Assembly (NCBI RefSeq): GCF_002931055.1
Contig: NZ_PSXX01000009.1
Span: 62,001 to 126,000, forward strand
Length of the DNA stretch: 64,000 bases
Source: Pseudoclavibacter sp. AY1H1
GTDB taxonomy: Bacteria; Actinomycetota; Actinomycetes; Actinomycetales; Microbacteriaceae
Direction of reading: 5' to 3'
Every line of letters starts with the position of its first letter. Position 1 is the stretch's first letter. Positions 15,325 through 23,020 of the stretch are shown here, one piece after another. Position numbers and translations under genes: made by a program. The notes under the pieces are model-generated. The model was given only the letters and a program-made list of their open reading frames with translations. It had not been told where the DNA came from and did not search any database.

Positions 15325-15489
15325 GGTGGTCCTTTCCTGCCGCCAGTTCCGGCGGCTCAGGCAACCCTCCCGCCGAGCACCCCCGCCCGGCATCGCCCGT
15401 CGGCACACTCCTCGCGGACCGCACGATGGAGTCGTCGCTCCACCTTTCGAAGGATGACCACGACGCGAGCCGTGTCTAGGCTGAGCCGC

Positions 15490-16692
15490 ATGCCGACCAC
15501 TGCGCTCACTCCCGTCTTCGTGGGACTGCGCACGGGGCTCCACGCCCTCTTCTTCGGACTCCTGGCGCTGGTCGCCGTGCGCGCGGTGCTCACCCCCGAG
15601 CAGAGCACGGCGCTCGTGCTGGCCGCGACGCTGCTCTTCGGCGCGACGTACGCGCTCGGGGCGATCGCCGCATCCAGGCGCACGCGGCTGGTGGCCGCAC
15701 TGCCCAGGCAGCGGCTGCTCTGGGTACTCGCCCTGACGCTCGAGTGGATGCTGCTGCTCTGGCTCTCCCGGGAGGCCGCGTACCTCGTCTTCCCGCTCTT
15801 CTTCGTGTACCTGCACCTGCTCGGCCGACGGGCTGGCATGCTCGCGGTCGCCGCGACGACGGCCATCGCCGTCATCGGCCTCGGGCTTCACGAGGGCTGG
15901 TCGGTCGCCGGTGTCATCGGCCCCTGCATCGGCGCGGGCGTCGCGGTGCTCATCGGGATCGGCTACGAGGCGCTCGCGAAGGAGGCGAGGGAGCGGGAGC
16001 AGCTGATGCGGGAGCTGCTCGCGACGCAGGAGCACCTCGTCGCGACGGAGCGGGAGGCTGGCACCCTCACGGAGCGCTCCCGCCTCGCCCGCGAGATCCA
16101 CGACACGGTCGCGCAGGGCCTCGCGAGCATCCAGATGCTGCTGCACGCCGCCGAGCGCGCCGACCCCGCCGGCGCCGGGGTCGGGCACATCCGGCTGGCG
16201 AGGGAGACGGCCGCCGACAACCTGGCCGAGACGCGACGCTTCATCCGCGAGCTGTCGCCGCCGGACCTCGACGGCATGGACCTCGAGCAGGCGCTGCGGC
16301 GGCTCGCGGACGCGACGTCGGCCGCGCACGGCATCCACGTCGAAGTGCACAGCAGCGCGGACTCCCTGCCCATGCCCGTGCAGACCGCCCTGCTGCGCAT
16401 CGCGCAGGGCGCTATCGCCAACGTCGTGCAGCACGCTGGCGCGAGCCGCGCGACCATCACCCTCGACGAGTCGGCGGCCGGGCTCGTCTTCGCCGTCGCC
16501 GACGACGGCCGCGGCTTCGACGCCAGCACCCACGAGCAGGCTGGCGGCGCGAACTCGGACTCGTTCGGGCTCGTCGCCACCCGCGAGCGAGTGCAGCAGC
16601 TCGGCGGCTCCCTCGACGTCACCTCCAGCGTCGGCCAGGGCACCACCCTGACCGTCACACTCCCAACGCTCCCCCGGGAAGGCACCGCATGA
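15490..16692 (+). CDS. NarL-type sensor histidine kinase
   Basis: This 400-residue kinase has five or six hydrophobic segments in residues 1-165, a short coiled stretch, then a HisKA_3 domain with RLAREIHDTVAQGLAS (His204) and an ATPase domain ending DDGRGFD...GLVATRERVQQLGGSL. The ATG at 15490 lies seven bases after a TAGGCT box with no ribosome-binding site, so transcription is probably leaderless. It overlaps the response regulator (ATGA). The pair is divergent from the ABC exporter genes, which suggests a sensing and export module. Confidence 0.92.
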   Translation: MPTTALTPVFVGLRTGLHALFFGLLALVAVRAVLTPEQSTALVLAATLLFGATYALGAIAASRRTRLVAALPRQRLLWVLALTLEWMLLLWLSREAAYLVFPLFFVYLHLLGRRAGMLAVAATTAIAVIGLGLHEGWSVAGVIGPCIGAGVAVLIGIGYEALAKEAREREQLMRELLATQEHLVATEREAGTLTERSRLAREIHDTVAQGLASIQMLLHAAERADPAGAGVGHIRLARETAADNLAETRRFIRELSPPDLDGMDLEQALRRLADATSAAHGIHVEVHSSADSLPMPVQTALLRIAQGAIANVVQHAGASRATITLDESAAGLVFAVADDGRGFDASTHEQAGGANSDSFGLVATRERVQQLGGSLDVTSSVGQGTTLTVTLPTLPREGTA

Positions 16693-17315
16693 TCCGCGTC
16701 GTGATCGCCGACGACCACCCCGTCGTGCGAGCAGGCCTCCGCGCCCTCCTCGGCCTCGAGCCCGACATCGAGGTCGCGGCGGAGGCGTCCACCGCCGAGG
16801 AGGCCGTGCAGGCGGCGGCCACCGAGCGGCCCGACCTCGTGCTCATGGACCTCCAGTTCGGTGCGCGCGAGAACGAGTCCGGCGCATCCGCGACCCGCCG
16901 CATCCGCAGCCTCCCAGACCCGCCGCACGTGCTCGTCGTAACGAACTACGACTCAGAGGGCGACATCCTCGGGGCCGTCGAAGCCGGCGCCAGCGGCTAC
17001 CTGCTGAAGGATGCGCCGCCCCACGAGCTGCTCGCGGCGGTCCGGGCCGCGGCGAGCGGTGCGAGCGCGCTCGCGCCGCCCATCGCCTCCCGCCTCATGG
17101 ACCGGCTCCGCACGCCCCAGCAGAGCCTCTCGCCGCGGGAGATCGAAGTGCTCGAGCTCGTCGCATCCGGGCTCTCGAACACGGACGTCGCCGCGGCGCT
17201 CTTCGTCACGGAGACGACCGTGAAGTCGCACCTCGCGCACGTCTTCACGAAGCTCGGCGCCACGTCCCGCACCGCGGCGGTCTCCGAGGCGAGGGCACGC
17301 GGCATCCTCCGGTAG
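16689..17315 (+). CDS. NarL/LuxR-family response regulator
   Basis: This 208-residue protein has a receiver domain with ADDHPVVR at the N-terminus, the phosphoacceptor in VLMDLQF (Asp54) and Lys in YLLKDAP near 103. The C-terminal LuxR-type helix-turn-helix reads LSPREIEVLELVASGLSNTD and TVKSHLAHVFTKLGATSRT. It is translationally coupled to the upstream kinase. Probable targets are the divergent ABC exporter genes. Confidence 0.94.
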   Translation: MIRVVIADDHPVVRAGLRALLGLEPDIEVAAEASTAEEAVQAAATERPDLVLMDLQFGARENESGASATRRIRSLPDPPHVLVVTNYDSEGDILGAVEAGASGYLLKDAPPHELLAAVRAAASGASALAPPIASRLMDRLRTPQQSLSPREIEVLELVASGLSNTDVAAALFVTETTVKSHLAHVFTKLGATSRTAAVSEARARGILR

Positions 17316-19839: not shown

Positions 19840-19882
19840 TATCGTCCGCGTATCGAAACCCGCATACGCCGCCGCAACACGC
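19840..19882 (+). promoter_or_regulatory. Candidate response-regulator site upstream of vanZ
   Basis: This segment matches the one upstream of vanY (22245-22287) at most positions: TATCG, CCGC, TAT, AAACCCGCA, ACGCC and GCAAC occur in the same order. Both begin exactly 62 bases before their ATG. TATCG recurs 11 bases apart, fitting tandem binding by an OmpR-type regulator. Confidence 0.65.
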
Positions 19883-19901
19883 CCCTCGAGAGGCTGTAGC
19901 C

Positions 19902-20405
19902 ATGAGCTACAGCCGAGCAGACCAGACCCTGGAACTCCCGACGACCGGGGCGTTCGCCACCGCCCAGCGGGCCCCGCGGACTCGTCGACGCTCGCGGGCG
20001 CCGCGCTTCCTCGTGGCCGTGCTCTTCCTCGCGTACCTGGTGCTGCTGACGTGGCTCATCGTGTGGAAGCTCGAGGTGCCGTTCGTCGGGTGGGGCGAGA
20101 CGAGGCAGCTGAAGCTCATCCCCTTCATCGCAAGCGAGGGGTACGCGGCGAGCAAGCCGCTGGAGGTGCTCGCGAACGTCGCCGTCTTCGTGCCGTTCGG
20201 CCTCTGCACCGGGTACCTGTGGCGCGTCCTGCCTGGCCCGAAGACGTTCTTCGCGGCCGGCTTCACGAGCCTCGCGATGGAGACGACGCAGTTCGCGCTC
20301 GCCGTCGGCAGCTTCGACACGAGCGACATCGTCGCGAACACCGTGGGTGCGCTGCTCGGCGCGGCCGTCGTCGCCCCGAGCGTGCGTCGCGCGGCGTTCA
20401 GCTAG
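19902..20405 (+). CDS. vanZ: VanZ-like membrane protein
   Basis: This 167-residue protein has a polar N-terminus, then four hydrophobic segments at about 35-55, 85-105, 112-130 and 135-155. The region LEVLANVAVFVPFGLCTGYL and the ETTQFALAVGSFDTSDIVANTVGALLG stretch (split here as TSDIVANTVGALLG) are the conserved VanZ motifs. VanZ proteins reduce sensitivity to glycopeptides, especially teicoplanin, by an unknown mechanism; in many actinobacteria they are orphan membrane proteins. There is no ribosome-binding site, so the transcript may be leaderless. Its stop overlaps the stop of the convergent sensor kinase by 8 bases. The upstream site ties it to the adjacent response regulator. Confidence 0.88.
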   Translation: MSYSRADQTLELPTTGAFATAQRAPRTRRRSRAPRFLVAVLFLAYLVLLTWLIVWKLEVPFVGWGETRQLKLIPFIASEGYAASKPLEVLANVAVFVPFGLCTGYLWRVLPGPKTFFAAGFTSLAMETTQFALAVGSFDTSDIVANTVGALLGAAVVAPSVRRAAFS

Positions 20406-21528
20406 CGCGGGCGCTCGGCTGGGAGCCGAACTCAGCCCGGGTCGCGGCCCGCGTGGCCGGCGGCAGCTGGACGGTCACGCGCAGCCCGCCCCCGTCCCGG
20501 GCCGCGAGGCGCATCGTCCCGCCGTGGGCCTTGACGACGCTCTTCACGATCGCGAGGCCCAGCCCCACTCCGGCGTGGTCGCTGCGGGCGCGCTGCTCGC
20601 CGCGCTGGAACGGCTCCGTGAGGGTTGCCAGCAGCTCGGGGCCGACCATGCTTCCCGTGTTCTCGACGACGAGGGTCGCCGCATCCGGTGCCGACGCCGT
20701 CGTCAGGCGCACCATGCCGCCCTCGGGGAGATTGTGGACGATCGCGTTGTGCAGCAGGTTCGTCGTGAGGAGGGAGATGAGAGCAGGCGAGCCGATCGTG
20801 TCCGCGGCCTCCCCCTCCGTCTCGATGGCGACGCCGCGCTTCTCGGCGAGCGGCAGCAGCGTCTCGGCCGCCTCCTCGGCGACGAGCGACAGGTCGACGC
20901 GCTCGGTCGCGAAGGTGCCGTGCTCGGTGCGGCTCAGCACAAGCAGCGCCTCGGTCAGCTCGATCGCGCGCGCGTTGACCGAGTGGAGGCGCCCGAGTAC
21001 CTCGTCGTGGTCGTGCCCCGGGTCTCGGCGGGCGACGTCGAGGAGCGTCTGTGAGATCGCGAGTGGCGTTCGCAGCTCGTGCGAGGCGTTCGCCGCGAAG
21101 CGCTGCTGCTGCGCGACGTGCGCCTCGAGCTGCGCGAGCATGGCGTCGAAGCTGTCCGCCAGCTCGGTGAACTCGTCGCTCTTGCCGTCGAGGCGGATGC
21201 GGTGCGACAGCGACCCGGCCGCCGCGGCCCGCGTGGCGTGGGTGATGCGGGTGAGCGGGGCGAGCATCCGCCCCGCCAGGAACCAGCCGCCGACCAGCGC
21301 GAAGACGAGCAGGAACAGCAGCGCCCAGGCCGCGGCCGGCACGAACGCGCGGACGAGGTCGGTGCGGCCGGGGAAGAAGGTCCACTCGCTGGCCATCGCC
21401 TCGGCCGGCACGTAGCGGAGGAGGAAGGCGTAGACGACGGCGAGCAGCAGGGCGCCCGCGATCATGAGGAAGCCTGCGTAGCTCAGCGCGAGCTTCAAGC
21501 GCACGCTGAGGCCGCGCTGCCTCGTCAC
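20398..21528 (-). CDS. VanS-like sensor histidine kinase
   Basis: This 376-residue kinase has two membrane segments (about 10-35 and 55-85 of the protein) around a very short extracytoplasmic loop, a HAMP linker, and a HisKA domain with NASHELRTPLAISQ. The ATPase domain has NLLHNAIVHN and GVGLGLAIVKSVVKAHGG. The short sensor loop resembles intramembrane-sensing kinases for cell-wall antibiotics. The GTG start at 21528 overlaps the response-regulator stop (GTGA). With vanY and vanZ on either side, it is probably a VanS-like or cell-envelope stress sensor. Confidence 0.9.
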   Translation of the reverse strand: MTRQRGLSVRLKLALSYAGFLMIAGALLLAVVYAFLLRYVPAEAMASEWTFFPGRTDLVRAFVPAAAWALLFLLVFALVGGWFLAGRMLAPLTRITHATRAAAAGSLSHRIRLDGKSDEFTELADSFDAMLAQLEAHVAQQQRFAANASHELRTPLAISQTLLDVARRDPGHDHDEVLGRLHSVNARAIELTEALLVLSRTEHGTFATERVDLSLVAEEAAETLLPLAEKRGVAIETEGEAADTIGSPALISLLTTNLLHNAIVHNLPEGGMVRLTTASAPDAATLVVENTGSMVGPELLATLTEPFQRGEQRARSDHAGVGLGLAIVKSVVKAHGGTMRLAARDGGGLRVTVQLPPATRAATRAEFGSQPSARAS

Positions 21529-22220
21529 CGGAGTTCGTTCTCGTCGAGCACCGATGCTGCCTCGGCGTCGATGCGGTAGCCGACGCCGGGCACGGTCACG
21601 ATGAGCCACGGCTCGCCGAGTCGTTTGCGGAGTGCGGAGACCGTGATGCGCACGGCGTTCGTGAAGGGGTCCGCGTTCTCGTCCCACGCCTTCTCGAGCA
21701 GCTCCTCAGCGCTGATCACTCCCCCGCCGGCGCTCATGAGCACTTCGAGCACCGCGAACTGCTTGCGGGTGAGGGCGACGTAGCGCCCGTCGCGGTACAC
21801 CTCGCGGCGGAACGGGTCGAGCTTGAGGCCGGCGATCTCGTGGATGGGCGGGCGGCTGTGCGCGCGGCGGCGGTTGAGGGCGCGCAGCCGGAGCACGAGC
21901 TCCTGCAGCTCGAACGGCTTCGTGAGGTAGTCGTCGGCGCCGAGCTCGAAGCCCGACGCCTTGTCGTCGAGGCGGTCGGCGGCCGTGAGCATGAGGATGA
22001 GCACCCCGCTCTTGGAGGCGACGATGCGTCTCGCGACCTCGTCGCCGGACGGGCCGGGGATGTCGCGGTCGAGCACGGCGACGTCGTAGTCGTTGACGCT
22101 CAGCAGCTCCAGCGCCGCGTGCCCGTCGCCGGCGACGTCGGCGGCGATCGCCTCGAGCCGCAGCCCGTCACGGATGGCCTCCGCCATGTAGGGCTCGTCC
22201 TCTACCAACAGCACACGCAT
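21525..22220 (-). CDS. OmpR/VanR-family response regulator
   Basis: This 231-residue protein has a receiver domain with LLVEDEPYMAE, phosphoacceptor in AVLDRDIPG (Asp51) and YLTKPF near 100, followed by an OmpR-type winged helix (LTRKQFAVLEVLMSAGGG, VRITVSALRKRLGEP, VPGVGYRI). The ATG at 22220 begins at the first residue of the receiver. It is the first gene of the kinase operon and its start is 25 bases from the shared upstream site at 22245-22287, so it may control itself, vanY and vanZ. Confidence 0.93.
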   Translation of the reverse strand: MRVLLVEDEPYMAEAIRDGLRLEAIAADVAGDGHAALELLSVNDYDVAVLDRDIPGPSGDEVARRIVASKSGVLILMLTAADRLDDKASGFELGADDYLTKPFELQELVLRLRALNRRRAHSRPPIHEIAGLKLDPFRREVYRDGRYVALTRKQFAVLEVLMSAGGGVISAEELLEKAWDENADPFTNAVRITVSALRKRLGEPWLIVTVPGVGYRIDAEAASVLDENELR

Positions 22221-22244
22221 GTGCCGATGATACGAGCCGCGGCA

Positions 22245-22287
22245 TATCGCCCGCATATGGGAAACCCGCAACGCCACGGCAACGTGC
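22245..22287 (+). promoter_or_regulatory. Candidate response-regulator site between regulator and vanY
   Basis: The segment matches the one upstream of vanZ (19840-19882) and again begins exactly 62 bases before the ATG, with one single-base gap in each copy that cancel out. It lies between the divergent regulator gene and vanY and could serve both. Confidence 0.65.
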
Positions 22288-22306
22288 GCTCGCCTGAACT
22301 TGTCCC

Positions 22307-23020
22307 ATGACGCTCACCAGCTCGCCCCGCCACCAGCGCACCGTCGCCGACCCACCCGCGAAGAAGCGCAGCGTGCGCCTCCTCGTGGGCGGCGCATCCC
22401 TCGTCGCGCTCGCAGGTCTCGGCGTCGCGCTCTTCTCGGCGCAGCTCGGGCAGACAGCCGCGTCGCACCGTGAGGCTCCGGCGCCGGATGCGGTGCTCGC
22501 CGCCCCCTCCACGGCCGGGTCGGGCGGCGAGTCAGCAGTCGACACCAGCTCGGGGAATGCCGGCGCGGAGAACCCAGACGGGCGGCTCCAGTTCGGCACG
22601 ACGGCGTTCGAGACCGAGTACGCCGGCATCGCCAACCTCTCCCCCGTGCTCCTCGATGCGCTGCAGGAGGCGACGAGCGACGCCGAGCTGGACGGCGTGT
22701 ACGTCATGGTCAACAGCGGGTGGCGGTCGGCGGAGCTGCAGCGGCAGCTGCTGCAAGATGCGGTCGCCGAGTACGGGTCGTTGGAGGAGGCGTCGCGCTG
22801 GGTCGCCTCCCCGGAGACCTCCCTGCACGTCTCGGGCGACGCCGTCGACGTGGAAGGCGGGGGCGCATCCGACTGGCTCACCACCAACGGGTCGCGGTAC
22901 GGCCTCTGCCAGACCTACCTCAACGAGCCGTGGCACTTCGAGTTCCAAGCCTCAGCCCCCGCAAACGGCTGCGCCGAGCAATACCCAGACCCGACGTACG
23001 ACCCGCGGCTGCGGAGCTAG
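22307..23020 (+). CDS. vanY: VanY-like D-alanyl-D-alanine carboxypeptidase
   Basis: This 237-residue protein is membrane-anchored by a helix at about residues 25-48 and has a zinc peptidase domain of the M15B family. The zinc motifs are visible: SLHVSGDAVDVE (SxHxxGxAxD) and EPWHFEF (ExxWH); SGWRS supports substrate binding. It removes the terminal D-Ala from peptidoglycan stem peptides, which lowers glycopeptide binding or trims the wall. There is no ribosome-binding site before the ATG. The gene is divergent from the VanR-like regulator and ends two bases from the convergent permease. Confidence 0.92.
   Translation: MTLTSSPRHQRTVADPPAKKRSVRLLVGGASLVALAGLGVALFSAQLGQTAASHREAPAPDAVLAAPSTAGSGGESAVDTSSGNAGAENPDGRLQFGTTAFETEYAGIANLSPVLLDALQEATSDAELDGVYVMVNSGWRSAELQRQLLQDAVAEYGSLEEASRWVASPETSLHVSGDAVDVEGGGASDWLTTNGSRYGLCQTYLNEPWHFEFQASAPANGCAEQYPDPTYDPRLRS

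Follow-up and report, generated by a model that had tools for sequence, protein, structure and literature searches.

A 39-bp element at a fixed distance from van gene starts as a probable operator of the VanR-like regulator of Pseudoclavibacter sp. AY1H1

In the soil bacterium Pseudoclavibacter sp. AY1H1, a VanRS-like two-component system lies between a vanZ-like and a vanY-like gene, and both of these genes are preceded, 62 bases ahead of the start codon, by a copy of one 39-base-pair (bp) element that is very probably the operator of the neighbouring VanR-like regulator. The locus was studied in a window of 64,000 nucleotides, by which the whole stretch of DNA analysed is meant (assembly GCF_002931055.1, contig NZ_PSXX01000009.1, positions 62,001 to 126,000 of the forward strand), and coordinates are those of this window. 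The vanZ-like gene (19902..20405, + strand) encodes 167 amino acids that match PF04892 with 75 bits. It is followed on the other strand by the genes of the VanS-like sensor kinase (20398..21528, - strand; 376 amino acids with an assumed GTG start; HAMP, HisKA and HATPase_c domains) and of the VanR-like response regulator of the OmpR family (21525..22220, - strand; 231 amino acids; PF00072 and PF00486). The top NCBIfam models are VanS-O for the kinase (435.6 bits) and VanR-O for the regulator (440.7 bits), and the curated cut-offs for the status of a VanS-O or VanR-O resistance allele (720 and 505, respectively) are reached by neither. The vanY-like gene (22307..23020, + strand) encodes a D-Ala-D-Ala carboxypeptidase of 237 amino acids (PF02557, 47.5 bits), in which SLHVSGDAVD and EPWH line up with solved carboxypeptidases in an alignment, so that the motifs SxHxxGxAVD and EPWH are kept. 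The regulator is identical to VanR of Streptomyces coelicolor (7lz9) at 191 of 221 positions, and its recognition helix NAVRITVSALRKRLGEP is the same as in that protein.

The preliminary description of this DNA had claimed two matched regulatory sites at 62 bases from the two genes, and they are found as claimed, with TATCG at 19840 and the ATG of vanZ at 19902, and with TATCG at 22245 and the ATG of vanY at 22307, the shared blocks standing in the claimed order at both. Both sites are copies of the 39-bp element TATCGNCSGCNTATCG-N9-TACG-N5-GCAAC, the widely conserved parts of which are TATCG/TATCG, TACG and GCAAC. The predicted operator of vanZ (19840..19878, + strand; half-sites by consensus at 19840, 19851, 19864 and 19875) scores 52.4 bits with a matrix trained on Streptomyces sites, and the predicted operator between vanR and vanY (22245..22283, + strand) scores 33.3 bits; in each case the start codon is at +62. 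The copy at vanY is also only 25 bp away from the start of vanR (22220) and so faces two genes. Two details of the original claim hold in part. The spacing of 11 bases between the TATCG copies is exact at vanZ (19840 and 19851), whereas the second copy at vanY reads TATGG (22256), and the shared block AAACCCGCA is present in both copies but shifted by one base in register. A chance likeness of the two segments can be ruled out, as the pattern TATCGNCCGCRTATN{1,3}AAACCCGCA has exactly two matches in the window and none in 100 shuffles, and as in the whole genome of 4.2 megabases both RTATCGYCCGCRTAT with at most one mismatch and the 39-bp form with at most three match only in these two places (no match in either reversed control). 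Possible -10 elements can be placed before all three genes: TGAACT for vanY (22295..22300, + strand) with T at -12 and -7, TATCAT for vanR (22227..22232, - strand) at 6 nucleotides before the ATG, a position conserved in other loci, and for vanZ the weak GAGGCT (19890..19895, + strand), which has T at -7 and overlaps a Shine-Dalgarno (SD)-like GAGG.

Within the genus, the kinase is found in six of ten genomes, the own genome included, and among 22 loci found with the kinase, those of four named Pseudoclavibacter genomes come closest. In these four relatives, the arrangement vanY-vanR-vanS-vanZ is kept together with both sites. Over the five genomes, 34 of the 39 columns of the vanZ operator are invariant versus 38 of 63 in its upstream flank, and 15 of the 17 half-site columns are invariant in the vanY operator. 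In a member of the genus that stands further off (L031/L036), vanY is likewise preceded by the site at 62 bp. An exact search for the 15-bp core in 199 genomes of the family matched four genomes (reversed control two), three of the genus and G075. In G075 the site precedes vanH by 62 bp, and this vanH belongs to a vanHAX cluster that has a VanSR of its own as well as a Mur ligase. A VanR-like protein (E <= 1e-75) was seen in 74 of 299 family genomes; a survey from 2021 reports van-like genes in less than 1% of Micrococcales genomes (PMC8698665), by criteria that differ from those of this count.

The distance between the element and the start codon is fixed far beyond Pseudoclavibacter. Sites had been viewed in one set of loci before the 39-bp pattern was defined, and 46 of the Streptomyces sites found with it served to train the matrix. 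Loci L171-L185 come from the same Streptomyces set as the training, 20 loci were picked for having matches, and 67 other loci are independent of the matrix training though not of the choice of the pattern; the start-codon distance was used in neither. From the family, 62 of 97 VanR matches were fetched as loci, mainly those of higher identity. With a threshold of 12 bits, the matrix finds 111 sites in the 67 and 20 loci and none in reversed sequences, and an ATG or GTG follows at +62 or +63 for 57 of 60 sites in the 67 loci and for 50 of 51 in the 20 chosen ones, so that the motif is kept in relatives at the very distance that had been proposed for a check. The 107 open frames at +62/+63, classed by similarity to reference proteins (with the families of the reference VanH, VanJ, VanK and Mur ligase checked), encode VanY (46), VanH (22), VanK (9), VanZ (7), VanJ (5), MurF (4), short products (10) and four other proteins, which are two serine D-Ala-D-Ala carboxypeptidases (PF00768), one alanine racemase and one DUF418 protein.

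Some of these targets are worth a closer description. The PF00768 serine-type carboxypeptidases (L087 8827 and L188 8502) stand at +62/+63 in the position that the zinc-type VanY has elsewhere, and in L090 the alanine racemase and the DUF418 membrane protein have VanR sites (5598 and 10155) at +63 and +62, respectively. The ten short frames are 12-41 amino acids long; a Mur ligase gene follows seven of them and a VanK-like gene the other three, and in six cases there is an overlap of 4 bases with the next start. Among the seven before a Mur ligase (L171 7341, L174 7076, L175 7467, L181 6906, L184 8859, L035 13674 and L081 2703), five have this 4-base overlap with its GTG start, and the arrangement looks like translational coupling from a leaderless mini-open reading frame (mini-ORF). 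In L171-L185, the products of VanH, VanK, MurF and other classes often begin with M-[ST]-[YSFH]-S-E-P after the VanR site.

Also the position of the element relative to the regulator gene is largely fixed. Among the 74 loci with a VanR more than 70% identical to that of S. coelicolor, the operator faces away from vanR at 24-28 bp from its start in 55, in 48 of them at 25 or 26 bp. Ten of the other 19 loci keep the first repeat pair (DR1) at 25-28 bp with at least 9.9 bits, and in one of these, L184, the second pair is kept too with a changed spacing; in a control of 4000 random 70-mers, 0.2% reach 8 bits and none does so at 23-28 bp. A control of the permease gene upstream of vanZ by the vanZ site was considered and rejected, because the chosen start of that gene (19773) is 67 bp away, as compared to the 24-28 bp for vanR. 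Upstream of the locus, a second kinase-regulator pair was recognised by eye from the translations (15454-17315).

The element goes along with VanR across the phylum. In 396 genomes, the 39-bp pattern with at most three mismatches matched 16 genomes (reversed control one), and a VanR search in a same-sized draw of 396 found 16 genomes with a match of at least 82% identity, the others having only about 60-68%. Element and close VanR orthologue are found together in 14 genomes, six of which belong to other classes than the window's genome, with two genomes having only the pattern and two having only VanR (Fisher's test, 6.7e-22). The two genomes with only the pattern have no start codon at +62, and those with only VanR have a site beyond the mismatch limit with 41.8 bits (G114) or a degraded site of 15.0 bits with an ATG at +62 (G506). 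In the genus of G484, which is taken as Streptomyces because VanR of L173 (G803) is 99.5% identical to that of S. coelicolor, the pattern matched 97 of 199 genomes (reversed control two). Where VanR is 70-87% identical to that of the window, the site is present at 12 bits in 39 of 47 loci. The proposed tie of the two sites to the VanRS-like system is thus borne out by the co-occurrence, by the wall and van genes behind the element, and by the recognition helix shared with S. coelicolor VanR. In L103 (5823) and L106 (12737), diverged operators (TGTTGT...GTATGGGGAAAG) precede an ATG ahead of vanH by exactly 62 bp, and the recognition helix of the VanR of these loci also differs (NAIRITISGLRKRLPDP); a co-evolution of site and regulator is possible there.

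In S. coelicolor and its relatives, the element can be connected to studied promoters. L173, a close relative of S. coelicolor, has the operator at -62 of each of vanJ, vanK and vanH, and the published primer for the S. coelicolor vanH promoter matches the vanH operator of L173 without mismatch (PMC9779433). As reported in that study, vancomycin in liquid culture induced a vanJ reporter about 40-fold and a vanH reporter about 20-fold, the latter being much less responsive on plates (PMC9779433).

The promoters behind the element look largely leaderless. T at -12 and -7 is found in 86 of 107 promoters versus 7.9% of 1203 control starts, and SD-like words occur in 5 of 107 versus 15% of the control starts. 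All five SD-like words belong to vanZ copies of Pseudoclavibacter, that of the window included, which is why leaderless transcription is least certain for vanZ. The claim that neither gene has a ribosome-binding site therefore stands for vanY, which fits the leaderless pattern with TGAACT at about -12 and no Shine-Dalgarno word, but not for vanZ with its GAGG 8 nucleotides before the ATG. The further supposition that both sites have the same position relative to the transcription start agrees with the +62/+63 rule and with the leaderless look of the promoter set, the vanZ copies of the genus being the exception. S. coelicolor vanH, vanK and vanR are included in a table of documented leaderless genes (PMC3160421). 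By eye, the tabulated sequences agree with those of L173 to one or two bases. The leaderless starts of the three S. coelicolor genes reportedly go back to Hong et al. 2004.

It is thus very likely that the neighbouring VanR uses the two sites as its operators, at a fixed distance from mostly leaderless starts and in both directions, with the binding by VanR being what we infer from these patterns. VanR in its phosphorylated form would bind, in head-to-tail order, half-sites spaced 11 bp, DR1 being formed by TATCG/TATCG at -62/-51 and the second repeat pair (DR2) by ATACG/CAAC-like half-sites at -38/-27, and it would recruit RNA polymerase to the weak -10 at about -12. Transcription would then begin at or beside the start codon, leaving most target messenger RNAs without a leader. 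The vanY site would work in two ways, with DR2 acting toward vanY and DR1 toward vanR, which would be an autoregulation. Induction would raise VanZ and VanY, the latter trimming the terminal D-Ala of the wall precursors and thereby the glycopeptide target. In this respect, the signal and the phenotype are predictions, and so are the transcription starts in Pseudoclavibacter and the part played by either repeat pair.

Several observations weigh against such a function of the sites. At 12 bits, eight of the 47 loci in which VanR is 70-87% identical lack a site, and although two of them, both with vanH, have diverged copies exactly 62 bp before an ATG (5.2 and 9.4 bits), no diverged copy is among the best two matches per locus in the other six. 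The vanZ promoter of the window combines the SD-like GAGG with the absence of T at -12, and the vanY operator as a whole, with 25 of 39 columns invariant in the five Pseudoclavibacter genomes, is conserved no better than the vanR side next to it (22 of 25). A palindromic operator was rejected, its dyad symmetry not being significant (best r 0.38, which is reached by 7.5% of column shuffles). Leaderless transcripts are reported to be under-represented among the S. coelicolor genes that are induced by three glycopeptides. Finally, the fragment in the vanH reporter, as judged by its primer, ends inside the operator and has neither the -10 nor the start; as this truncated reporter is still induced, the whole element may not be needed.

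Concerning the function, the absence of vanHAX had been claimed and is supported for the genome: there is no PF01427 match that would indicate vanX, for vanH there are only 2-hydroxyacid dehydrogenase-like proteins with 28-41% identity over parts of VanH, and for vanA only two ligase-like proteins with 40% and 34%. Because the genome has no vanHAX, a stand-alone regulon of VanRS, VanY and VanZ is the best reading of the sequence. VanY removes the terminal D-Ala, the residue that glycopeptides bind. The likely output is that D-Ala-D-Ala ends are trimmed by this enzyme, with VanZ in addition. The preliminary description had taken the regulon for a general wall-stress response rather than a glycopeptide-specific one, with the sites being VanR operators all the same. 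This would suit a genome without vanHAX and a kinase under the VanS-O cut-off, but it is unlikely in view of the action of VanY on just the residue to which glycopeptides bind. Of the known sensor systems, VanS of type A from enterococci responds, according to a review, to many compounds that act on the wall, whereas for S. coelicolor VanRS a response to glycopeptides is reported, but none to moenomycin, bacitracin or ramoplanin (PMC6767563). Because of this glycopeptide-specific induction in S. coelicolor, an inducible glycopeptide response is considered, by analogy, likelier than one to general wall stress.

It is highly improbable that some other factor, such as a sigma factor or another response regulator, reads the element and that VanR is linked to it by neighbourhood only. 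Distant VanR-like paralogues do exist in the family, but all 13 of the 13 loci with a VanR 57-70% identical to that of the window have no site, which rules out these paralogues as readers, and the co-occurrence with VanR over 396 genomes likewise argues against another factor. An extracytoplasmic function (ECF) sigma factor promoter was rejected on spacing, as the ECF consensus is not compatible with the distance between GCAAC and the -10. The idea that the likeness merely reflects a promoter region copied with its genes, without regulatory function, can hardly be upheld, since, although the likeness in Streptomyces (L171-L185) runs about 15 nucleotides into the coding sequences of unrelated classes (between-class DNA identity 47.5% over the 15 nucleotides after the start codon, then 34% and 29% in the next two stretches), only the half-sites, the -10 and the start are conserved, and their spacing stays the same from Pseudoclavibacter as far as other classes of the phylum.

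With the sites read as VanR operators, the system itself is known, and the operator and its geometry appear to be new, with a reservation for the promoter mapping of Hong 2004. A paper on the S. coelicolor VanR structure stated in 2021 that the recognised DNA sequences were not yet known (PMC8329863), and no published description of the operator was found in the literature searched, Hong 2004 and Novotna 2016 being outside that search. We tentatively suggest a more general picture, which is perhaps somewhat less likely to be right than wrong in its full extent: one module of VanR operator, promoter and start, fixed in its geometry, would be shared throughout the phylum, and in it a pair of starts would flank two VanR dimer sites that can be separated, DR1 being used by vanR and DR2 by the target gene. 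Together with the start codon, and in Streptomyces also with the first codons, this module may have been copied as a unit onto vanY, vanH, vanK, vanJ, vanZ, murF, serine carboxypeptidases and alanine racemase, sometimes by way of a leaderless mini-ORF overlapping the start of the gene behind it. Regulons would then grow by the capture of a ready-made switch. The element predicts the recognition sequences of VanR and their spacing, which is a testable prediction for binding, and a simple pattern search could predict the regulon of any actinobacterium, also of genomes without vanHAX. Genes outside the van set, such as those of MurF, serine carboxypeptidase and alanine racemase, appear to join the response.

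Among the known systems, the closest is vanSRJKHAX of S. coelicolor, with which the locus shares the VanR (191 of 221 positions and the identical helix), the divergent orientation of vanRS and target gene, and the 39-bp element at -62, which was read for vanJ, vanK and vanH in the close relative. With the close VanR and its helix, the adjacent HAMP/HisKA/HATPase_c kinase and the same operator, the system has the sequence features of an S. coelicolor-type VanRS. It differs in that no vanHAX, vanJ or vanK was found at the locus, the genome has no vanX, and the predicted targets are vanY and vanZ. Arrangements of vanRSY and of vanRS with vanZ are already known from actinobacteria (PMC8698665), and like in the case of the window they have a VanRS-like pair beside vanY and vanZ without vanHAX; the accessible part of that survey describes the gene arrangements and mentions no operator. 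Enterococcal VanR is less than 20% identical to that of S. coelicolor, and the upstream regions are divergent (PMC8329863). The enterococcal VanR of types A and B also is an activator of the OmpR family that acts on van promoters at known sites. Operators of the PhoB/PhoP type consist of head-to-tail half-sites with a spacing of 11 bp just upstream of the -10. The VanR element has the same 11-bp head-to-tail arrangement, and it is set apart by the sequence of its half-sites, by its two repeat pairs, and by its fixed distance from the start codon.

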